This document shows, piece after piece, positions 4,646-14,925 of a stretch of 64,000 nucleotides of DNA; the stretch's first letter is position 1; every line of letters starts with the position of its first letter. The notes under the pieces were generated by a model. The model saw only the letters and a list, made by a program, of their open reading frames with translations. It had not been told where the DNA came from and did no database searches. The stretch comes from Limnohabitans sp. Lineage in GTDB: Bacteria; Pseudomonadota; Gammaproteobacteria; Burkholderiales; Burkholderiaceae_C. Where the stretch lies: contig VERE01000012.1 of assembly GCA_018882835.1 (NCBI GenBank), positions 1 to 64,000 of the forward strand. Reading direction: 5' to 3'. A program made the position numbers and the translations under genes.

Positions 4646-4666
4646 TTCATTTTGAGAAAGTTGCGC

Positions 4667-5668
4667 ATGACGAACCTTCGACACCCTACCTTGCGTGCCC
4701 TCACCCGCTACAGCGCTGTGATGTGTTTGTCCTTATGGGGGGCCGCTGCGGCGTGGGCACAAGCCACCGCTTGGCCGACCAAGCCGGTCACCATCATCGT
4801 GCCCTTCGCTGCAGGCGGCGGCACAGACATTGGCACCCGCATCGTGGCGCAGCGCTTGTCGCAGCTTTGGGGGCAAAGCGTGCTGGTCGACAACCGTGGC
4901 GGCGCGGGTGGCAACGTGGGCTTGGAGGTCGTGTCGCGCGCCAAGCCGGATGGCTACACCCTGCTGACGGGCAATGTGGGCACCCAGTCGATCAACCCCA
5001 CGCTTTACCGCAAACTCAATTACAACCCCGACACCTCGTTTGTGCCCATTGGCTTGTTTGCCGAATTGCCCTTTGTGCTGGCGACCACCGCATCGCTGCC
5101 TGCGAAGAATGTGAAAGAACTGGTCGAGCTTGCCAAAGCCAACCCCAACCAATTGACATATGCCAGCTCGGGCAACGGCGGCTCACCGCACTTGTCCGCC
5201 GAGACCTTCAAAATTGCCACCGGCACGCAAATTCTGCATGTGCCCTACAAAGGAGGCGGCGCAGCCATGACCGACCTCATCTCTGGCAATGTCCACATGC
5301 TGTTTGCGTCTGTGCTGGAAACCTCGGCCTACATCAAGGCTGGCAAATTGAAAGCCTTGGCCATCACCAGCAAAGAGCGTGTGTCTGCCATGCCTGATGT
5401 GCCCACCCTGCAGGAAAGTGGCGTGACGGGTGCGGAGTCGGGCTCTTGGCTGGGTCTGCTGGCACCCGCTGGCACACCGCCTGAAGTGGTTGAAAAAATT
5501 TCGCGCGGCCTGCAGCAAGTGGTCAGCGCCGCCGATGTGCAGCAACAACTGCTGGCACAAGGTGCGATTGCCAAAACCGGGACGCCGCAAGACTTCGTGC
5601 AGCTCATTGCCAACGATCGCAAACGCTACGCTCGCATCATCCTCGACAACAAACTCACCATCGACTGA
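4667..5668 (+). CDS. Bug/TctC-family periplasmic solute-binding protein
   Basis: 333 residues from ATG 4667 (a TTG at 4652 in the same frame is less likely). A signal peptide ends near residue 31 (AAAWAQA). The mature protein opens with the family hallmark WPTKPVTIIVPFAAGG. Bug proteins bind carboxylates, amino acids or aromatics in the periplasm, and most lack dedicated TctAB membrane partners, as here. It is the last gene of the 2954-5668 group and converges on the SDR gene at 5694. The ligand is probably the acid handled by the two upstream enzymes. Confidence 0.85.
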   Translation: MTNLRHPTLRALTRYSAVMCLSLWGAAAAWAQATAWPTKPVTIIVPFAAGGGTDIGTRIVAQRLSQLWGQSVLVDNRGGAGGNVGLEVVSRAKPDGYTLLTGNVGTQSINPTLYRKLNYNPDTSFVPIGLFAELPFVLATTASLPAKNVKELVELAKANPNQLTYASSGNGGSPHLSAETFKIATGTQILHVPYKGGGAAMTDLISGNVHMLFASVLETSAYIKAGKLKALAITSKERVSAMPDVPTLQESGVTGAESGSWLGLLAPAGTPPEVVEKISRGLQQVVSAADVQQQLLAQGAIAKTGTPQDFVQLIANDRKRYARIILDNKLTID

Positions 5669-5693: not shown

Positions 5694-6479
5694 TTAGGCC
5701 ATGACCAGGCCGCCATCCACCATCAGCACTTGACCCGTCACAAACCTGCTCCAATCCGAAGCCAGGAACATCACAGGCCCGGCGATGTCCTCTGGCGAAG
5801 CCAATCGACCCATGGGGGTTTGCGCCACGATCATGTCTTTCACGGCTTCTTTGGTAGGAAGGCTTGAGGCTGTGGGATGCACCAACCCCGGCGCAACGCA
5901 GTTGACGCGAATTCCCAGTGGCCCCAATTCGGCAGCCAGATTGCGGCTGAAGCCTATCAGCGCCGACTTTGCTGTGGTGTAGTCGTGGTACGGCACCGTG
6001 GGGCGCGCCACCAGGTCGCTCACCATGTTGACGATGCTGCCTTTTCCGCGCTGACGAAAGTGCGGCAACGCTGCCTGGGTGACTTGAAAAGCCGCCTGCA
6101 CCGCACCTTCAAATTGTGTTTGGTAGGAAGGCCAACCCAACTCCCAGAATCGTGCACGCTGCTCGGGGTCAAACCGGTAGGGCGCAAATGCATTGTTGAC
6201 CACAGCGTCCAAGCGCCCGGCTTCTGCCACGAAGCTGTCCACCATGGCCCGCACCGCTTCGGGAACGCGCACATCTGCGGGCAAGGCGATGGCGTCGCCG
6301 CCTTCGGCTTGGCATCGCGCCACCACAGCATCGGCTGCGGCAGCGTTGCTCAGAAAATTCACACCAACCAAGGCGCCTTCGCGGGCAAAAGCCAAGGCCA
6401 ACGCCGCTCCGATGCCACGCCCAGCGCCAGTGATCAACACCGCACGACCTTTGAAGGTGCCCGTTGCGAGGGTGCTCAT
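5694..6479 (-). CDS. Short-chain dehydrogenase, last gene of the TPP-riboswitch operon
   Basis: 261 residues, classical SDR. The cofactor motif TGAGRGIG is at 17-24, NNAF near 95-98, and the catalytic Ser154, Tyr167 and Lys171 are present. Its ATG overlaps the stop of the binding-protein gene by 4 bp (6476-6479), so it is translationally coupled into the operon. Closest general relatives are FabG-like 3-oxoacyl reductases. In this operon, where LuxE and LuxC homologues could make an aldehyde, an alcohol-forming aldehyde reductase role is attractive but is inference. Confidence 0.8.
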   Translation of the reverse strand: MSTLATGTFKGRAVLITGAGRGIGAALALAFAREGALVGVNFLSNAAAADAVVARCQAEGGDAIALPADVRVPEAVRAMVDSFVAEAGRLDAVVNNAFAPYRFDPEQRARFWELGWPSYQTQFEGAVQAAFQVTQAALPHFRQRGKGSIVNMVSDLVARPTVPYHDYTTAKSALIGFSRNLAAELGPLGIRVNCVAPGLVHPTASSLPTKEAVKDMIVAQTPMGRLASPEDIAGPVMFLASDWSRFVTGQVLMVDGGLVMA

Positions 6480-7486
6480 GGCGCGGGCAACAGATCTTGG
6501 CTGACCACGTCTTGCACCGACAGGTCACGTTGAATCAGGCCCAAGGCTTTGTAGGCCTGGGCGCCTTTTTGCAAGGACACCAAATCGAACGCGCCCAAAC
6601 CTTTGGTCTGTGTGGTGCTGGACACGCTGGAGGCATTGCGCAGTTTGATGATCTCCAAATTCATGGCCAGATGCTGGCCATCGATGGCACGCTTGACGGC
6701 CAACTGCGCAGCCTCCTCGGGAGAGCGCATCATCCAGGTCATGCTGTCTTTATAGGCTTGCAGGAAACGCCTGAGCACGTCTTTGCGGCGCTGGTAGGTC
6801 TCTTCGCGCACCACGAACAAATCGCTGGAAAGGTTCAGATGGTTTTTCACTTCCATCACATTCACGTCGCCCAAGCCACGCTGGCGCCCCACCAGCAAGC
6901 CCGTGTCCGTGGCCGCCGTGGCATCCACCTGACCTTGTATGAGGGGCGCGAAGTTCAACAAGCCGGTCACCACCAATGTGACATCCGATTCAGTCAGGCC
7001 CGCCTGGTGCAGCAGCACCTGCAGGTTTTGCCGCGTGCCACTCGACAAGCTGTAAACACCGATGCGCTTGCCCTTGAGGTCGGCCGGCTGGCGAATGTTT
7101 TGGGCTTTCAGTGAAACCACATTGAACACGTTTTGCGGGTAGATGTCGTAAATGGCCCGCAGCTTTTCGCCCTTGTCGAGCGCGGCAAAGAAAGAGCCGG
7201 GATCGGTGAACGCCACATCGGCCTGGCCGCTGAGCAGGTTGCGCAAGGCGTCGCCACCGCCGGCACCGGGCAAATACCCCAAGTCAATGGCACGCGCTTT
7301 GAAAAAACCCTTGTCTTCTTCCACCAGCAGATTGGTGATTTCTGTGATGGGCTTGCTCCAGCCTGCCACCACCACCTTGTCAAGCTTGCCTGGGGTTTGC
7401 GCCAGCACGCTGGCCGAAAAACCCACTGTCACAAGGCAGGACAGCCACCAACCTTGCAGGAAATTTCTTCGCTTTTGCTTCATCAT
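6476..7486 (-). CDS. ABC transporter substrate-binding protein, NMT1/THI5 (ThiY)-like
   Basis: 336 residues with a signal peptide ending near VLAQT (residue 31). The mature part has the NMT1/THI5-like fold: KGFF early in lobe 1, then QADVAFTDPGSFF, then LKGKRIGVYSLSSGTRQ. The family includes ThiY (pyrimidine precursors of thiamine) and SsuA/TauA (sulfonates). A TPP riboswitch heads the operon, so a thiamine-related pyrimidine or thiazole ligand is favoured. Two ATGs lie in tandem at 7486 and 7483. The gene is 21 bp after the permease gene. Confidence 0.8.
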   Translation of the reverse strand: MMKQKRRNFLQGWWLSCLVTVGFSASVLAQTPGKLDKVVVAGWSKPITEITNLLVEEDKGFFKARAIDLGYLPGAGGGDALRNLLSGQADVAFTDPGSFFAALDKGEKLRAIYDIYPQNVFNVVSLKAQNIRQPADLKGKRIGVYSLSSGTRQNLQVLLHQAGLTESDVTLVVTGLLNFAPLIQGQVDATAATDTGLLVGRQRGLGDVNVMEVKNHLNLSSDLFVVREETYQRRKDVLRRFLQAYKDSMTWMMRSPEEAAQLAVKRAIDGQHLAMNLEIIKLRNASSVSSTTQTKGLGAFDLVSLQKGAQAYKALGLIQRDLSVQDVVSQDLLPAP

Positions 7487-7507
7487 TTTGAGAGTATCCC
7501 AATGTCA

Positions 7508-8245
7508 TTATTTCAACAAAGACCGTTCGATCCAGACCATGCCCTGGTAGGAGATCCAACCCAAGACGGTGATCACGACCAGCACGGCAAACATCAAGGG
7601 GGTGTCCATGGAGCCCTGGGCGGCAATGATCAGGGCACCCAGGCCGCGGCTGGCGCCAATGAACTCGCCCACCACCGCGCCCACCCAGGCCAGCACCACC
7701 GCCACACGCAAGCCCGCCAGAATGGCCGGCTTGCCGTCGGGCACTTTCAAACGCCAGATGGTTTGCCAGCGGCTGGCACGCAGCATGCGAAACAGCTCCA
7801 GCCGCTGCGGAGCCACATGCTGCACAGCCGTGAGGGTGTTTTCCAGCAAAGGAAAAAAACAAATCAAGGCCGTGATGACCACCGTGGGCGTCGCACCAAA
7901 GCCCAGCCAGACGATCAACAGCGGCGCCAAGGCCAGCTTGGGCACCACCTGACTCACCACCAGATAGGGCATGAAGACACGCCGCGCCGCGGGCCATTCG
8001 CCCAGGGCAACGCCGCCCAGAAACCCCAGCAAACTGCCCAGGGCAAAGCCCAGCACCACTTCGAGCAAGGTCTGCAACACATGGGGCCCCAAATACCCAG
8101 AGGCAAAACCATTGCGCAAAGCCGTCATCACCATGGACGGCGCAGGCAACACCAAGGTGGAAAGCTTGAGACCGGTGGCCGCAAGCTCCCATGCGACCAC
8201 CAACAGCATGCCCAGCAACAGTGAAAGCCAGCTACTGCGTTGCAT
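7508..8245 (-). CDS. ABC transporter permease (ThiX/SsuC-like)
   Basis: 245 residues from ATG 8245; about six hydrophobic segments. The cytoplasmic coupling loop characteristic of BPD_transp_1 appears as GAVVGEFIGASRGLG in the C-terminal half. The start overlaps the ATPase stop (TGATG at 8243-8247), showing translational coupling. It forms an importer with the ATPase (8245-9000) and binding protein (6476-7486). TPP-riboswitch control suggests thiamine-precursor uptake (ThiXYZ type). Confidence 0.85.
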   Translation of the reverse strand: MQRSSWLSLLLGMLLVVAWELAATGLKLSTLVLPAPSMVMTALRNGFASGYLGPHVLQTLLEVVLGFALGSLLGFLGGVALGEWPAARRVFMPYLVVSQVVPKLALAPLLIVWLGFGATPTVVITALICFFPLLENTLTAVQHVAPQRLELFRMLRASRWQTIWRLKVPDGKPAILAGLRVAVVLAWVGAVVGEFIGASRGLGALIIAAQGSMDTPLMFAVLVVITVLGWISYQGMVWIERSLLK

Positions 8246-9000
8246 CACCCCCCCTCGTCCATCATGGCGCGCAGTTCGGCGCACAAAGCATTGAAGCGGG
8301 GCGTGTAGCGCACGCCGTTTTGGCGCGGGCGTGGCAAGTCGACCTGCACCGCGCCGTTCAACTTGCCATGCGCCATGACCGCCACCCGGTCGGCCAGGTA
8401 CACCGCTTCGGCCATGTCATGGGTGACAAACAACACCGAGCTGCCCTGGGCTTGGCACACCGCCAGCAAATCGTTTTGCAGCTCTTCTCGGGTGATGGCG
8501 TCCAGCGCGGCAAAGGGCTCGTCCATCAGCAAAAGATGCGGCCGTGTGACCAAGGCACGCGCAATGGCCACGCGGCTTTGCTGGCCGCCAGAAAGCTGCG
8601 GCGGCCTTTGCTGTGCCAGGGCAGACAAGCCCATACGCGCCAGCAAGTCGAGGGCATGGGCTTCATCTTCACGCCGGGCGGCTCGGTGCAGCGTGATTGG
8701 CAACAGCACGTTGTCGAGTACGCTCAACCAGTCCAGCAACGTCGGCGACTGAAATACAAAGCCCATGTCGGGATGCGGTGACATGACCGGTTGAGACCCC
8801 AGCGAAATCAACCCAGCCTCGGGCTGAATCAGGCCTGCCGCCAATTTAAGCAACGTGGTTTTGCCACAGCCGCTGCGCCCCACCAGACAGTGAATCTCTC
8901 CCGGCGTCATCGCCCAGTCCACTCCGTCCACCACCGGCGGCCAGCCAGGGTAGGTGTAGCGCACCTGACGCATCTGCAACATGGCGGACTCAATCGGCAT
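8245..9000 (-). CDS. ABC transporter ATP-binding protein (ThiZ/SsuB-like)
   Basis: 251 residues from ATG 9000, which overlaps the end of the LuxC-like gene by 11 bp (ATG 8982 is an alternative). Walker A GRSGCGKTT is at 41-49; the signature LSGGQQSRVAIARAL and Walker B LLLMDEP follow, then the switch His (FVTHDMAEA). It belongs to the nitrate/sulfonate/taurine/thiamine-precursor subfamily. It energises the importer encoded by the next two genes. Confidence 0.88.
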   Translation of the reverse strand: MPIESAMLQMRQVRYTYPGWPPVVDGVDWAMTPGEIHCLVGRSGCGKTTLLKLAAGLIQPEAGLISLGSQPVMSPHPDMGFVFQSPTLLDWLSVLDNVLLPITLHRAARREDEAHALDLLARMGLSALAQQRPPQLSGGQQSRVAIARALVTRPHLLLMDEPFAALDAITREELQNDLLAVCQAQGSSVLFVTHDMAEAVYLADRVAVMAHGKLNGAVQVDLPRPRQNGVRYTPRFNALCAELRAMMDEGG

Positions 9001-10450
9001 ACGGCGCAAAACTTTCTGCCGACAACTCGGTGGAAGCTTCGATGTCCACCATGCGCACCAGATCCAGCAAACTGAAGCGGCCATCATGGTGCCATCCGGC
9101 CTCGGGCGAAGTCATGGCACCAATGGCACAAATGCGGGTCACGCCTGCATCCCCCAAGGCCTGGGCCAAGGGCATCAATTCCTCTGGCGAGGCGGCCAAG
9201 CCAGCGGTTTGCAACACTTGACGCGCGTCTTTCAACAAGGCTGGAACATCGCCCAAATGGTTCACCGCCACCACCCACACAGACCGCATCAGGGCTGTAG
9301 GCTGCAAGGCCATGGCATGGTCGCAGTACACCACACACGCAGCATCCTCGGGCGAGCCCAGCACCGTCTGCTCAGGATGCGCCAAACTTTGCACCGTCTG
9401 TGAATCACGCCAGGTGGCCACTGCAGCCGCCTCTTCCAGGCTCAAGTTGCGGCGCGGGAATCGCGGCTGCAAGGCTTGCAATTCCGCCAGCAAACGTTGC
9501 GCAAACTCCAGTGGGCTGATGCGCCCCCCCTTGGCGACATAAAACACCTGGGGCGAGTAACAGCCACTTTGTTCGTAACGCATGACATCAAGCGCAGCCT
9601 GTTGCACCACCGCCTGTCCCTTGCGGATGCTCAGGGCCGACGCGGCGACCATGCCAAAGCTCAGCTTGTGGCCGTGGGGCAAAAAGCGCGTGGTGACTGG
9701 AACCTGTTGCTGCAGGGCCGACAAGCTGTCATTGCCGCCATAAGCCAGAACCACGTCGGCTAGAGCCAATGCCACGCGCTCCTGCGCCAGGTCACCGCCT
9801 TGCCACCACACCACGGCCAGGCAATTGGCCCAGCGCGGCTCCACCTCGACCAGCAAGCGCGCCATCACGCTGGCAAAGACCGGCTCGGCGCTGGCTACTT
9901 TGCCCACCGTGCCAGCCTTGACCAGCAAGCCCGACACCAGGCTCCATAGCGGCAACGCAGGCACGTTGCCTGCCCAGACATGCAACAGCAGATCGGGGCC
10001 CACGGCTTTGGCCCATCCTCCTTTGGGGCGCGGCTGGAACTCATCGAGCATCTTGGGGTTGGCGAAGTCCTCGGCCACAAAGCGCTGCAACTGCAAGGCC
10101 CGAAAGGTCTTGAGAAAGGCATTCAAACCCAGGCGCACCATGTCTGGCGCCAGCCCGCTGCAGCGCGGCAACCATTCGGCCAGCTGTTGACGATAGGGGT
10201 CTTGCTCGTCCAGCAAGCGCGCCACAGCAGTGTCAATCACCGCAATGATGGAAGACAGGTTGCGTGCTTTCAAATGGCGCTGGCTGGCGCTTCGCACGCG
10301 CTCAGCCAGCGCCGTCATTTGCGCTGGCGTCAGCACGGGAACTTCCACTTCACAGGCGCTGTCACCTTGGCCAAAGGACAAGCGCTGCCAGGTCAGTTGG
10401 TTCTCCTTCAGGCCTGGCAAATAGCCCGCACGAAACACAGGAAGGCTCAT
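8990..10450 (-). CDS. LuxC-like acyl-CoA/acyl-thioester reductase
   Basis: 486 residues from ATG 10450, which overlaps the LuxE-like stop by 4 bp (ATGA). The frame is open further upstream, but that part only shadows the LuxE-like gene. LuxC features: GNVPALPLWSLVSGL near 161-175 in the nucleotide/acyl region, and the catalytic Cys297 in YEQSGCYSPQ, which forms the acyl-thioester reduced by NADPH to an aldehyde. There is no luxA, luxB or luxD anywhere in the window, so this is not bioluminescence. With the LuxE-like protein it would turn a carboxylate into an aldehyde. The operon's TPP riboswitch points to a thiamine-related acid. Confidence 0.85.
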   Translation of the reverse strand: MSLPVFRAGYLPGLKENQLTWQRLSFGQGDSACEVEVPVLTPAQMTALAERVRSASQRHLKARNLSSIIAVIDTAVARLLDEQDPYRQQLAEWLPRCSGLAPDMVRLGLNAFLKTFRALQLQRFVAEDFANPKMLDEFQPRPKGGWAKAVGPDLLLHVWAGNVPALPLWSLVSGLLVKAGTVGKVASAEPVFASVMARLLVEVEPRWANCLAVVWWQGGDLAQERVALALADVVLAYGGNDSLSALQQQVPVTTRFLPHGHKLSFGMVAASALSIRKGQAVVQQAALDVMRYEQSGCYSPQVFYVAKGGRISPLEFAQRLLAELQALQPRFPRRNLSLEEAAAVATWRDSQTVQSLAHPEQTVLGSPEDAACVVYCDHAMALQPTALMRSVWVVAVNHLGDVPALLKDARQVLQTAGLAASPEELMPLAQALGDAGVTRICAIGAMTSPEAGWHHDGRFSLLDLVRMVDIEASTELSAESFAPYAD

Positions 10451-11523
10451 GCTTGGGCTGCTTTCAAAAAGTCTTCCACGGCCAACGAACAGCCCTTGAC
10501 TTGTGCGCCTTGGGCACGACCCAATAGCACAAAGCCATCGCCGGTGGCGATGCCGACATCTTCCGTCAGGATGGTGCACACCGAGTTGAAGTTGGCCAGA
10601 TCGGTATGCGCCAAGATGCCGCGCTCGCCGCGCGGCACTTCGCGGCCGGTGAGCGGGTCCAACAGGCGAGAGCGAATCCAGTGCGGCCCGCGTTTCACAG
10701 AGGGCACCACAGCGTTGCCCGCATCGTAAAACTGGGTGCTGAGTTCGGTCATGCCGTACATGTTGATGCAATCCTTGCGGTGCACGCCAAAACATGCAGA
10801 CAGCTGGTCATAGAAGTCTTCCATCGGAATTTCTCGCGACTGCCCCTTGAAGCCACCGGTGTCCAACAAGCGGCTGCCCGCAGGCAGTTGAAATTTTTTT
10901 CCTGCGGCCTGCATCCGATCCATGCAATGCACAAAGCTGTAACTGGCGCCCAGTAAAGCCATGGGTTCGCCCGTCTGTTGCGCCTGCGCCAAGACCTCGC
11001 ACAGCGCTTCAAAGCGCAAGCCTTCGCTGTCAAGAAAATAGCCGCTGTCAGGCGTGCCGAAATGTTTCAAGGCCAAGGCCAGGTAATGCGCCAGCGAAGA
11101 ATGGGGCATGGCTTGCTCGGTGGGAAACAAGATGCCCATGCGAAGGCGCTCGCGCCCTTGCATGAAGCTGGCCTGGAAATGCCCTTGCATGGAAGGGTCA
11201 TAGAGCACCATGGAAGGATGGTAGTGCCGCCCTTTGACGTCGCCTCGCGTGGTCCCGCTGGTCATGAACACCCGCTCACAGCTTTCGGGAGCAGCGCAAC
11301 TCAGGGTCAAGTCTTTGAAAGCGTTGATGGGCACGGCAGGGATGTCATGCCAATGTCGAACGCTGCGCAAGGTTTTGCCACGCTGCTGGCAATAGCGTTG
11401 GAACGGCACATTGTGTTGGAACTGGTGAGCAAACAGGCGCAAAGCCAGCGCATTGAAGCGCTCTTCAGAGGCCGATACTTCGGTGATATAGGCCAGCAGA
11501 TCGCGTACGAGCTCGGATGTCAC
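10447..11523 (-). CDS. LuxE-like acyl-protein synthetase/acid-activating ligase
   Basis: 358 residues starting with GTG at 11523; an AAAGG lies 6 nt upstream, while the further-upstream TTG at 11553 has no good site. The ATP/AMP-binding loop MTSGTTRGD is at 87-95 and the adenylation motif NMYGMTEL at 254-261, both typical of LuxE and related AMP-forming ligases. The expected reaction is carboxylate plus ATP to acyl-AMP, then transfer to a Cys thiol. It is the first gene after the TPP riboswitch and is translationally coupled to the LuxC-like gene. The substrate is unknown. Confidence 0.85.
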   Translation of the reverse strand: MTSELVRDLLAYITEVSASEERFNALALRLFAHQFQHNVPFQRYCQQRGKTLRSVRHWHDIPAVPINAFKDLTLSCAAPESCERVFMTSGTTRGDVKGRHYHPSMVLYDPSMQGHFQASFMQGRERLRMGILFPTEQAMPHSSLAHYLALALKHFGTPDSGYFLDSEGLRFEALCEVLAQAQQTGEPMALLGASYSFVHCMDRMQAAGKKFQLPAGSRLLDTGGFKGQSREIPMEDFYDQLSACFGVHRKDCINMYGMTELSTQFYDAGNAVVPSVKRGPHWIRSRLLDPLTGREVPRGERGILAHTDLANFNSVCTILTEDVGIATGDGFVLLGRAQGAQVKGCSLAVEDFLKAAQA

Positions 11524-11528
11524 AAATA

Positions 11529-11567
11529 ACCTTTCGGTGGCGTGCTTGCACAAGTGCTCCGAAAAGT
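11529..11567 (-). promoter_or_regulatory. Predicted Shine-Dalgarno-sequestering stem (riboswitch expression platform)
   Basis: On the minus strand ACTTTTCGG (11567-11559) can pair over 9 bp, with one G-U, with CCGAAAGGT (11537-11529). The latter contains the ribosome-binding site of the LuxE-like gene. A small self-complementary CTTGTGCAAG lies in the loop. This fits translational control: with TPP bound, the site is hidden. The pairing was found by eye, not folded computationally. Confidence 0.5.
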
Positions 11568-11587
11568 GTGGCAGGTCGAGGGGCCTG

Positions 11588-11685
11588 GCAGCTCTCCTTA
11601 CGTCGGCATGATCCGATTCAAGTTCGCGGGTTCGGTGTCACCATCTCAGCCAGCCATGTATCCACATGGCATGCACCCCGGAGCG
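11588..11685 (-). promoter_or_regulatory. TPP riboswitch (THI box)
   Basis: The minus strand carries the THI-box landmarks in order: GGGGTGC (11679-11673), a variable P3 arm, GGCTGAGAT with the invariant CTGAGA at 11649-11644, then GAACTTGAATCGGATCATG, and GCCGACGTAAGGAGAGC closing the aptamer at 11607-11591. This matches the TPP aptamer consensus (CUGAGA, ACCUGAU, GCGUAGGGA) with few changes. It lies about 65 nt upstream of the LuxE-like GTG and so controls the six-gene operon down to 5694. Confidence 0.92.
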
Positions 11686-11690
11686 TTTGG

Positions 11691-11730: not shown

Positions 11731-12819
11731 TCAGCCAAGGTGGCGGCACACCGCTTGCGTGACTTCGCTGCAACGGGCCGTGCCACCTTGGTCGTAGGGC
11801 ACGGTTTGACCGGCCGCCAACACCTCTTCCACGGCTTTTTCAATGCCATCAGCCGCCGAGCGCAGGCGCTCGTCCGCATGGCGATCACCCAGCCAACGCA
11901 GCATCAACGCCGCTGACAAAATGGTGGCCAGCGGGCTGGCCACATCTTGCCCCGCAATGTCGGGCGCCGAGCCGTGCGCGCCTTGAAACAAGCCGTGGTC
12001 CAGACCCAACTCAGCAGAGGGCGCCATGCCCAAGCCGCCGACGGTGCCAGCGCCCAAGTCGGAGATGATGTCTCCGAACATGTTCTCAGCAACGATGACG
12101 TCGTAGAAATCGGGTTTTTTCAGCATGTGCACCGTGATGGCATCGGCATAGGCATAGTCGATTTGCACATCCGGGTACTGGCTGGCCACCTCGGTGCAGA
12201 CAGCGCGGAAAAAAGCGTAGGTCTTGAGAATGTTGGCCTTGTCGCACACGGTGACGCGTCGCTGGCCATCGCGCGGCGCGCCGTGGCGACGCCGTGCCAG
12301 GTCGAACGAAAATTGGGCCACACGTTCCACGCCCTTGCGGGTCATGACCAAGGTATCGGTCACCAATTCATCGCGCAGATTCACGCCCGCACCTCGGCTG
12401 GCATAGAGGCCCTCGGTGTTCTCGCGCACGATGACGTAATCAATTTGTCCGGCTTTCCAATCCGAGAGGGTGGACTTGACGCCCTGGTAAAGGCGGATGG
12501 GGCGGACATTGGCGAACAAGTCGAGCTTGAAGCGCAACTGTAAATGCAGGTCGTTGCCCACTTCCGTGCCATCGGCATAGGTCACCCCCGGAATGCCGGC
12601 GGCGCCATGCAAAGTGGCGTCCGCGGTACGGCAGGCATCAAAGGTTTCTTGCGGCAACACAAAGCCGCTGCGCTGGTAATGGCCTGCGCCACCTTCATGC
12701 GAGGCAAAGCGCAGCAGGCTCGAACCGCAGGCTTCGCGCAACACCTGAAGGGCAGCCTGACAGACTTCGGGGCCAATGCCATCCCCATCCAGGGTGACGA
12801 TGTCGTAAGTGTTCTTCAT
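11731..12819 (-). CDS. Isocitrate/isopropylmalate dehydrogenase-family enzyme
   Basis: 362 residues from ATG 12819. It shows the beta-decarboxylating dehydrogenase signature: DGDGIGPEV at the N-terminus, VRENTEGLY for substrate, and NMFGDIISDLGAGTVGGLGM near 250-270 for the metal and cofactor. Relatives include isopropylmalate, isocitrate, homoisocitrate and tartrate/D-malate dehydrogenases. No leuABCD genes are near, and it sits last in a catabolic operon (17050 to 11731), so a D-malate or tartrate-type substrate seems more likely than leucine synthesis. That is inference. Confidence 0.8.
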   Translation of the reverse strand: MKNTYDIVTLDGDGIGPEVCQAALQVLREACGSSLLRFASHEGGAGHYQRSGFVLPQETFDACRTADATLHGAAGIPGVTYADGTEVGNDLHLQLRFKLDLFANVRPIRLYQGVKSTLSDWKAGQIDYVIVRENTEGLYASRGAGVNLRDELVTDTLVMTRKGVERVAQFSFDLARRRHGAPRDGQRRVTVCDKANILKTYAFFRAVCTEVASQYPDVQIDYAYADAITVHMLKKPDFYDVIVAENMFGDIISDLGAGTVGGLGMAPSAELGLDHGLFQGAHGSAPDIAGQDVASPLATILSAALMLRWLGDRHADERLRSAADGIEKAVEEVLAAGQTVPYDQGGTARCSEVTQAVCRHLG

Positions 12820-12831
12820 GACGCCCGCCAC

Positions 12832-13704
12832 TTAGCGCGCCACCAAGCGCGTCACGACCTCGGGCAGGAAGGCGTTCGGGTCGCCCTCCTCTTTGGCTTG
12901 GGCCAGCGTGCGCAACACGGCCTGGGCCACGGTGCGGTCGGCATGCGTGTCTTCGGCCATGGTGTTGTAGTAGCTCAGGTCTTTGTGCGCATTGGCAATG
13001 CTGAACTTCAAGCCCGAGCTGTCGCCGTCGGTCAGGAAGGGCTTGAGGCGATCGAGTGCCGCCCCCCAGCCACCGCCCACCCCCAGCACCTGCACAAAGG
13101 TGGCCGGGTCCATGCCGGCGCGCTGCGCGCAAGCGGCCGCTTCGGCAATCAAGGTGACCGAACCCAAGGACACATAGTTGTGCAACAGCTTCATGCGATG
13201 GCCAGCACCCACCGGGCCCACATGCGTGATGTTTTCGGCGAAGCAGGCCAACAAGGGGCGGCATTCATCAAACAAGGCCTTGTCGCCACCCACCAGCAAA
13301 TTCAGACGCCCTTCGGCGGCTTCCTTGGGGGTGCGGGTCATGGGCGAGTCGATGAAACGGCCGCCTGCAGCGTGCACCATTGCGGCCATGCGTTCGGTGG
13401 AAGCAGGCACGGCGGTTGAACAGTCAATCACGACTGTGCCGGGGCGCAGACCTTGCAAGGCGCCGTCGGGACCTGTGAGCACGGCTTCCACTTGAGGCGA
13501 ACCAGTGACGCACAAAATCAGCACATCGACTTGCGTTGCCAGCTCACGCGGCGTGATCGCGGTGGTGACACCTAGGGCCTTCAAGCCGTCCAGGGGTTGA
13601 TTGCCAGCGTGCTCCAACACCCGCAGCGGATGTCCGTGCTTGACCAGGTTGCTTGCAATCCCGTGGCCCATCAGGCCAATGCCAATCATTCCAATGTGCT
13701 TCAT
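12832..13704 (-). CDS. 3-hydroxyisobutyrate dehydrogenase-family oxidoreductase
   Basis: 290 residues from ATG 13704. The N-terminal Rossmann motif MIGIGLMGHGIA is followed by CVTGSPQVEAVL and the substrate-binding CSTAVPAST; the catalytic Lys lies in GAGHRMKLLHNY. These enzymes oxidise beta-hydroxyacids (3-hydroxyisobutyrate, tartronate semialdehyde, 6-phosphogluconate-like) with NAD(P). It is part of the same-strand dehydrogenase operon, upstream of the IMDH-like gene. Confidence 0.83.
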   Translation of the reverse strand: MKHIGMIGIGLMGHGIASNLVKHGHPLRVLEHAGNQPLDGLKALGVTTAITPRELATQVDVLILCVTGSPQVEAVLTGPDGALQGLRPGTVVIDCSTAVPASTERMAAMVHAAGGRFIDSPMTRTPKEAAEGRLNLLVGGDKALFDECRPLLACFAENITHVGPVGAGHRMKLLHNYVSLGSVTLIAEAAACAQRAGMDPATFVQVLGVGGGWGAALDRLKPFLTDGDSSGLKFSIANAHKDLSYYNTMAEDTHADRTVAQAVLRTLAQAKEEGDPNAFLPEVVTRLVAR

Positions 13705-13726
13705 GCTGTCCTTCACTTTCAATACA

Positions 13727-13843
13727 CGTCATCGCGAGGCGCACAGCGCCGAGGCGATCTTAACCGCGTCATCGCGAGCGCAGCGCGGCGATATTGCACC
13801 GCAAAGGGATGGCCGCGGCCCCTTTGGGGCCTCACAATGACGA
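13727..13843. repeat. REP-like palindromic repeat, one partial and one complete unit
   Basis: Between two genes of the operon lie a short unit (13727-13761) and a full unit (about 13766-13843). The full unit starts CGTCATCGCGAG and ends with its imperfect inverse CTCACAATGACG, with internal GCGCAGCGCGGCGAT. Related units occur at 19302-19330 and 25126-25202. This looks like a dispersed non-coding REP/MITE element; it may also form a hairpin in the operon mRNA. Confidence 0.75.
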
Positions 13844-13845
13844 CA

Positions 13846-14925
13846 TCAGGGGGTGCGACGGGGGGCTTCGCGCAGGAGGTCTGCGAGTTCTTTTTTCCAC
13901 CAGCGTGCCTGCCCCGTGGTGCCATGGCCGGATGTGTTTTCACTGCCAGGGATCAGCAACAAACGCGCACCTGGAATGCGCTGAAGCTCACGCGTCATGA
14001 AACCCAACTCGGGCGGGTTTCTTTCGTCATCGGCGGAGTTGATGGCCATCAACGTGGCCCGGATTTTTTCCAAGTCGGGAGAAGCGTTGTAGTCGCGTGA
14101 GGCATCCCACTGGTAGAGGTGGTCGTTGGCATCGCCCGCAAATTTGGCTTTCAGCCGCGTGTCCAGCAACTGATCCGCTTTGTCACGGTTCGGGGCCAGT
14201 TTTTGCAGGCCCTGATGCCCTCCATTGGTTCCGATGGCGTAAAACACCGAGGCAAATTGGAGGCTGCGTGGTTGCTGGCTGTAGTTGCCACCCATCCATT
14301 CGGGATCGTTGCGAATCATGTCGATGATCAAGCGGCGCATCATCCAGTTGCGGCCCGACATTTCGGTGGGCATGGAGGCCATGGGGACCAGAACATCCAT
14401 GAAGTCGGGGTACATCGTGCCCCACAACCAGGTGTGCATGCCGCCCATGGAGTTGCCTTGGATCAGGCGCACATGCTTGAGCTTCAAGCCTTCGGTCAGC
14501 AACAGGTGTTGTGCACGCACCATGTCCACATAGTTGTAGCGCGGAAAGCGGGCGCGCAAGCCATCGGAGGGCTTGCTGGATTGGCCCGTGCCAATCGCAT
14601 CCGGAAGGATGATGAAGTGCTTGCTGGCATCCAGGGGTTGACCGGGGCCAAACAACTCTCCTCCAAACGCTGGATTCAGCATGCCCTTGCCTGAGCCCGT
14701 GGTGCCATGCAGGATGACCACAGCCTCATGTGCGGGGTTACCCAAGGTGACATAGCCCAGCTTGAGCTCAGGCAAGACTTCCCCAGTGTGGAAACGGAAA
14801 TCCTTGGCAACCCAAACACCCTCCTGTTGCCCAGAAAACAACGGCGTCCCCGTCTGCCCCACCGCAGCTGAACCCATCACCATCATGCAAACCCCACACC
14901 ATTTCTTAAGCCATTCAGACAACAT
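13846..14925 (-). CDS. Secreted alpha/beta-fold hydrolase (MetX-like fold)
   Basis: 359 residues from ATG 14925, with AAGGAG upstream. The frame runs on upstream only as a shadow of the SDR gene. A signal peptide covers residues 1 to about 24. The nucleophile elbow GNSMGG holds the catalytic Ser, in the context LIQGNSMGGMHTW, and a late SGHGT suggests the His. The fold resembles homoserine acetyltransferase-like hydrolases, but export argues for a periplasmic esterase or lactonase. It could release the acid consumed by the neighbouring dehydrogenases (inference). Confidence 0.75.
   Translation of the reverse strand: MLSEWLKKWCGVCMMVMGSAAVGQTGTPLFSGQQEGVWVAKDFRFHTGEVLPELKLGYVTLGNPAHEAVVILHGTTGSGKGMLNPAFGGELFGPGQPLDASKHFIILPDAIGTGQSSKPSDGLRARFPRYNYVDMVRAQHLLLTEGLKLKHVRLIQGNSMGGMHTWLWGTMYPDFMDVLVPMASMPTEMSGRNWMMRRLIIDMIRNDPEWMGGNYSQQPRSLQFASVFYAIGTNGGHQGLQKLAPNRDKADQLLDTRLKAKFAGDANDHLYQWDASRDYNASPDLEKIRATLMAINSADDERNPPELGFMTRELQRIPGARLLLIPGSENTSGHGTTGQARWWKKELADLLREAPRRTP

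Follow-up and report, generated by a model that had tools for sequence, protein, structure and literature searches.

Several of the described systems closest to the locus analysed here supply the pyrimidine moiety of thiamin. The ThiXYZ and ThiY-TenA pathways, which salvage N-formyl-4-amino-5-aminomethyl-2-methylpyrimidine (FAMP) by means of an ATP-binding cassette (ABC) importer whose binding protein has the NMT1/THI5 fold, free the pyrimidine by hydrolysis (YlmB, TenA) and feed 4-amino-5-hydroxymethyl-2-methylpyrimidine (HMP) into ThiD. De novo, the same moiety is provided by the HMP-phosphate (HMP-P) synthase ThiC, through a radical S-adenosylmethionine (SAM) synthesis from 5-aminoimidazole ribotide (AIR; PMC11117688). 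As for thiC-less bacteria, ThiV and CytX carry ready-made HMP, and a 2025 paper presents thiC-less Limnohabitans as HMP auxotrophs relying on thiV, thiY and/or cytX (PMC12637900). The subject of the present analysis is a six-gene operon found in a 64,000-bp stretch of Limnohabitans sp. DNA (positions 1 to 64,000 of contig VERE01000012.1, assembly GCA_018882835.1), hereafter the window. On its minus strand, a thiamin pyrophosphate (TPP) riboswitch is followed by genes for LuxE, LuxC, an ABC ATPase, a permease, a binding protein and a short-chain dehydrogenase/reductase (SDR). Judging from its gene content and its relatives, this operon is probably a TPP-repressed salvage route for the thiamin pyrimidine, in which an imported acid would be reduced to HMP by LuxE, LuxC and the SDR.

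The operon resembles each of these systems in part. It shares the type of importer with the ThiY-TenA pathway, from which it differs in its enzymes (acid-activating ligase, acyl reductase and SDR); searches of the window genome for TenA, ThiC and CytX gave no match. Like ThiV and CytX, it would supply pyrimidine to genomes with ThiG and without ThiC, although these transporters (of which CytX, and not ThiV, was sought here) involve no reduction. Like ThiC, it would be a source of the thiamin pyrimidine, by salvage of an imported acid instead of de novo synthesis, and operons of this type also occur in ThiC-less genomes. With the LuxC-LuxE fatty acid reductase of bioluminescence (7xc6) it has in common the Pfam families, the aligned cysteines and the predicted LuxC fold, whereas the riboswitch, the ABC importer, the SDR and the lack of a luciferase gene set it apart. 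TPP-controlled salvage of the thiamin pyrimidine being already known, it is the enzyme set and the substrate that would be new. In agreement with the preliminary description, which knew of no pathway of this kind, none of the open-access papers listed was seen to give LuxE/LuxC a place in thiamin metabolism or to present such an operon; a comparison of riboswitch regulons names genes of thiamin synthesis and transport as TPP-controlled and has no match for 'lux' in its main text (PMC3766115).

The THI-box announced for the leader was recovered, with both of its quoted motifs and an RF00059 match above the gathering score, which is also the sole Rfam match above threshold across the window. The genome as a whole (3.28 Mb; completeness 97.97%, contamination 5.15%) gave a single TPP riboswitch in the RF00059 search, that of the window. 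All six gene families and their order were likewise recovered by Pfam and coordinates (Table 1), adjacent genes overlapping by 1–11 bases except for a 21-base gap between the permease and the binding protein.

Table 1. Position and main supporting matches of the riboswitch, the operon genes and their neighbours in the window
Feature	Position	Strand	Match and remarks
TPP riboswitch (RF00059)	11578..11690	minus	cmscan 55.2 bits, gathering score 54.3, E 4.5e-8
Linker from aptamer to LuxE start	11524..11577	minus	possible hairpin CTTTTCGG / CCGAAAGG, minimum-energy folds
LuxE-type acid-activating ligase	10447..11523	minus	PF04443 76.3 bits (vs. 24.9); likely GTG start 11523
LuxC-type acyl reductase	8990..10450	minus	PF05893 275.9 bits; catalytic cysteine C297
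ABC importer ATPase	8245..9000	minus	PF00005 110.5 bits; exact start a matter of choice
ABC importer permease	7508..8245	minus	PF00528 99.5 bits; start ATG 8245 or GTG 8248/8284 (choice)
NMT1/THI5-type periplasmic binding protein	6476..7486	minus	PF09084 165.1 bits
SDR-family oxidoreductase	5694..6479	minus	PF13561 193 bits; TGAGRGIG and YTTAK motifs
TctC-type receptor (flank)	4652..5668	plus	Pfam
Isocitrate/isopropylmalate dehydrogenase family (flank)	11731..12831	minus	Pfam
6-phosphogluconate/hydroxyisobutyrate dehydrogenase family (flank)	12832..13722	minus	Pfam

A conserved linkage of LuxE/LuxC to TPP riboswitches in other genomes, sought in related loci, was found in most of them. A protein scan of a public genome collection with the window LuxE gave 83 stretches encoding a relative, of which the best 80 loci (from Burkholderiales, alphaproteobacteria and Bacillota) were kept; these having been chosen by similarity to the window LuxE, the result concerns that subfamily, not LuxE proteins in general. 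The 80 genomes were searched with RF00059 and the matches assigned by coordinate and strand, with a check of the core motif; in 71 loci a riboswitch precedes LuxE on its own strand at no more than 1.5 kb, and in L033, L047, L053, L068 and L073 it was also detected directly in the locus by cmscan. Since no genome has more than 9 RF00059 matches, such a linkage exceeds chance. Four of the nine riboswitch-less loci (L011, L014, L077 and L079) have less than 200 bases of upstream DNA, leaving as true misses within 1.5 kb only L040, L048, L062, L066 and the distant L081.

The complete six-gene set, in the same order and with the SDR as last gene, is present in 66 of the 80 loci. Concerning the others, nine are truncated by a contig end, L046 has no ATPase match, L081 (37% identity) consists of LuxE-LuxC alone, and the ABC importer is missing from L033, L047 and L073, which keep LuxE-LuxC-SDR. 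In the Paenibacillus locus L073 (6396–11375), the order is riboswitch, xanthine/uracil-type permease (PF00860, 240.3 bits), LuxE, LuxC and SDR, with no ABC importer match; the nucleobase transporter PLUTO is reported to carry HMP (PMC5874261). L033 and L047 are loci from metagenome-assembled genomes (MAGs) labelled Rhodospirillaceae, with the arrangement riboswitch-LuxE-LuxC-SDR, beside which no transporter was recognised by eye in the open reading frames of L033 (4400–6767) and L047 (1–1800). In a LuxE tree of 76 rows, from which L011, L056 and L077 (cut) and two rows with a stop in the matched stretch were excluded and whose bootstrap had not settled, 12 of the 13 Bacillota copies group with three alphaproteobacterial ones (99/97), L073 forming a long separate branch. 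Beside L022 (G308, C121), tandem RF00059 matches lie upstream of LuxE (13648–13750 and 13774–13876), the outer one being weak (31.1 bits).

The binding protein matches the ThiY type in both its family (NMT1/THI5, PF09084) and its fold. Its structure model (predicted local distance difference test, pLDDT, 89.7) has as closest Foldseek matches the thiamin-bound 4nmy, then ThiY with FAMP (3ix1; TM-score 0.88 by target length, E 5.9e-22), the Bordetella protein 3qsl (ligand not stated) and the HMP synthase Thi5, and sulfonate and taurine binders rank after them, so that the fold alone leaves the ligand unfixed. As for the ATPase, the nearest NCBIfam models are those of nitrate, taurine and sulfonate importers, the 25 matches listed all being below their cut-offs. 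The window binding protein may be what screens of thiC-less genomes label ThiY. The likeness to ThiY is also what one would expect if the importer carried HMP or another known pyrimidine vitamer while LuxE, LuxC and the SDR did something else under thiamin control, for instance acting on a by-product or an unrelated acid; that the three enzymes occur without the importer in L033, L047 and L073 fits such a separation of tasks. Yet enzymes and importer stand together under one riboswitch in the 66 complete loci, and the importer-less loci retain both the enzymes and the riboswitch, which makes the enzymes the constant core of the system. This first alternative is considered unlikely.

The nature of the product was approached through genome content, in a sample of 250 genomes, each at least 90% complete, from the family to which the window belongs (E-value thresholds of 1e-30 for LuxE, 0.001 for ThiC and 1e-40 for ThiG). 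LuxE is patchy, with 24 carriers, all of which retain ThiG. It occurs in 7 of the 10 genomes having ThiG and lacking ThiC, spread over five genera, as against 17 of the 165 having both, and in none of those lacking both (0/72) or lacking ThiG alone (0/3). Among ThiG carriers, LuxE is thus associated with the absence of ThiC (Fisher p = 3.6e-5) and, among ThiC-less genomes, with the presence of ThiG (p = 3.2e-8), both values being uncorrected for kinship. A CytX-like transporter (210–240 bits) is present in each of the three ThiC-less ThiG carriers without LuxE, which belong to three genera, and no CytX-like gene was found in the seven that have LuxE; five genomes with ThiC possess LuxE and a CytX-like gene together. 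TenA is present in one of the ten ThiC-less ThiG carriers. The loss of ThiC taken by itself, without the split by ThiG, was rejected as a correlate of LuxE. TenA was also rejected as a hidden source of HMP, being missing from 14 of 18 ThiC-less LuxE carriers and showing no enrichment.

A second set, outside the family sample, comprised 40 of the 51 genomes in the first of two RF00059 searches, all of the 40 being operon carriers (completeness not given, many MAGs). ThiC is missing from 13 of them, the window genome included, and a strong ThiG is found in 37, the match being weak in G018 and G032 and absent in G041. The window genome has thiD, thiO, thiG and thiE on another contig (L086). In two Desulfosporosinus genomes (G021 and G028; loci L044 and L051), three ThiC matches each were seen in addition to the LuxE operon. 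G288, which bears the same genus label as the window genome, has LuxE and ThiG at coordinates identical to those of Limnohabitans sp. B9-3 (L007, G004). Two other genomes of the window's genus (G123 and G216) gave no match to ThiC, ThiG or LuxE, and thiamin synthesis seems, from these searches, to have been lost in part of the genus.

Several loci have thi genes as neighbours. L059, L068 and L070 are arranged as riboswitch, thiD, LuxE, LuxC, importer, SDR and a thiE-like match (33–36% identity), followed in L059 and L068 by thiO and thiG; thiD encodes the HMP/HMP-P kinase. No ThiC match was obtained in the three corresponding genomes (G034, G043 and G044), ThiC absences being scored from genome-level searches and not from the survey of locus neighbours. 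In L055, thiD and thiE come after the SDR, and in Limnohabitans-type loci (e.g. L002, L007 and L016) thiD (on the opposite strand), thiO and thiG come directly after. Finally, five Bacillaceae loci (L049, L052, L053, L054 and L057) have thiM, thiD, thiE and thiW just upstream of LuxE, with a second riboswitch ahead of thiW-LuxE in L053. The TPP riboswitch, the thi neighbours and the complementarity with ThiC among ThiG carriers all speak for a role in HMP supply.

These data also bear on the two substrates that had been put forward, the pyrimidine 5-carboxylate and 4-methylthiazole-5-acetate. The latter would be imported, reduced to hydroxyethylthiazole by an identical acid-to-alcohol chemistry and phosphorylated by ThiM, and it could draw on the thiM and thiW genes of the five Bacillaceae loci and on the three LuxE-carrying genomes without a strong ThiG. 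However, LuxE tracks missing ThiC and not missing ThiG in the family sample, the thi gene inside the operon in L059, L068 and L070 is thiD, and the nearest folds of the binding protein are pyrimidine- or thiamin-linked. The thiazole acid was set aside because ThiG is kept by 24 of 24 LuxE carriers of the family sample, and this branch is regarded as very unlikely; the same retention, the association of LuxE with missing ThiC in ThiG carriers and the thiD gene inside three operons favour the pyrimidine 5-carboxylate, which would give HMP. A third candidate is thiamine acetic acid, an oxidised form of thiamin, which would be imported and reduced back to thiamin. The conversion of thiamine acetic acid to thiamin fits the acid-to-alcohol chemistry, and the top fold match of the binding protein is thiamin-bound, but neither the retention of ThiG nor thiD inside three operons would be explained; its probability is taken to be very small.

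Concerning the enzymes, the window LuxE and LuxC align with those of 7xc6 (phmmer E 2e-17 and 3.8e-19, respectively), including the C-terminal KGCSL (KGCS) of LuxE and C297 of LuxC. Each of the two cysteines, which we take from the lux enzymes to be acyl carriers, is invariant in 14 of 14 aligned pairs. The LuxC structure model (pLDDT 81.8) has 7xc6_A as its top Foldseek match. The equivalog models for the fatty-acid enzymes are reached by neither protein, the window LuxC scoring 93.9 bits against a cut-off of 750 (NF052251) and LuxE 75.4 against 550 (NF052244). Ordinary long-chain fatty-acid reduction with a coincidental riboswitch, suggested by the substrates of lux-operon LuxC and LuxE and by the identical Pfam families, is highly improbable in view of these scores, of the association with TPP riboswitches and thi genes across two phyla, and of the six operon genes without luciferase. 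The statement that no luciferase is present holds, by Pfam, for the six genes of the operon, to which the search for luxAB was confined.

For pyrimidine acid salvage, the following scheme is proposed. The ABC importer and its ThiY/Thi5-like binding protein would take up 4-amino-2-methylpyrimidine-5-carboxylic acid, the substrate to which the combination of HMP as product (from the genome pattern) with a ligase, acyl reductase and dehydrogenase set points. LuxE and LuxC would activate and reduce this acid, and the SDR, which is retained even in the three importer-less loci, would catalyse the final aldehyde-to-alcohol step to HMP. From there, HMP would reach thiamin phosphate through ThiD, ThiE and the ThiG branch, the operon presumably being repressed by TPP. 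In ThiC-less genomes, that of the window included, it would replace ThiC as the source of HMP, and in ThiC-bearing genomes it would be an additional salvage route. The acid itself has been recorded in the urine of rats, as a metabolite of thiamin (Neal and Pearson 1964, as cited in PMC7780320). Overall, the preliminary description's inference that an imported acid is converted to an alcohol is supported, short of proof.

Several observations weigh against this scheme. When ThiG is ignored, LuxE is not enriched in ThiC-less genomes of the family (7/24 vs. 75/226). The CytX-like assignment is a weak one: such genes occur in 51 of the 250 genomes, no match attains the curated cut-off of 309.85 bits, and by themselves they are not enriched in ThiC-less ThiG carriers (3/10 vs. 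47/165, p = 1). TenA is found in 4 of 18 ThiC-less LuxE carriers. Two genomes, G018 (L033) and G041 (L066), possess LuxE and TenA without ThiC or a strong ThiG, and G032 (L057) has LuxE and ThiC without a strong ThiG; many of the 40 genomes being MAGs, some gene absences may be assembly gaps. The thiM-thiD-thiE-thiW set of the Bacillaceae loci also serves thiazole salvage. The closest NCBIfam model of the SDR is 3-oxoacyl-ACP reductase (278.1 bits, below the cut-off of 292), which leaves its substrate unfixed. Moreover, HMP could instead be brought in by a transporter that escaped recognition. As for the acid in natural waters, no measurement of the 5-carboxylate was found, the available text of an aquatic vitamer paper naming HMP, 4-amino-5-aminomethyl-2-methylpyrimidine (AmMP) and FAMP (PMC10881298); more generally, the acid is not among the vitamers named in the accessible parts of aquatic B1 papers.

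On balance, it seems somewhat more likely than not that the route is widespread, bacteria of two or more phyla taking up 4-amino-2-methylpyrimidine-5-carboxylate and making HMP from it by lux-type enzymes, that it replaces ThiC fully in some genomes, and that some thiC-less freshwater 'HMP auxotrophs' live on the acid. If so, LuxC and LuxE would gain a role in vitamin supply, an acid would join the exchanged B1 vitamers, and the source of pyrimidine would be explained for Limnohabitans-like bacteria that have the thiazole branch and lack ThiC. A growth test on a single defined compound becomes directly possible.

A scan for promoters and terminators gave no signal exceeding chance. In the linker of the leader, the hairpin predicted by minimum-energy folds covers the AAAGG ahead of the LuxE GTG start, and its position over the ribosome site would fit translational control, a match that is suggestive only. 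Its stability does not rise above that of shuffled sequences (z 0.51 and −0.43), and the hairpin was set aside as expression platform of the riboswitch, the predicted fold being no better than shuffles. Finally, the genes flanking the operon (Table 1) seem to form a catabolic set rather than to belong with the thiamin genes.

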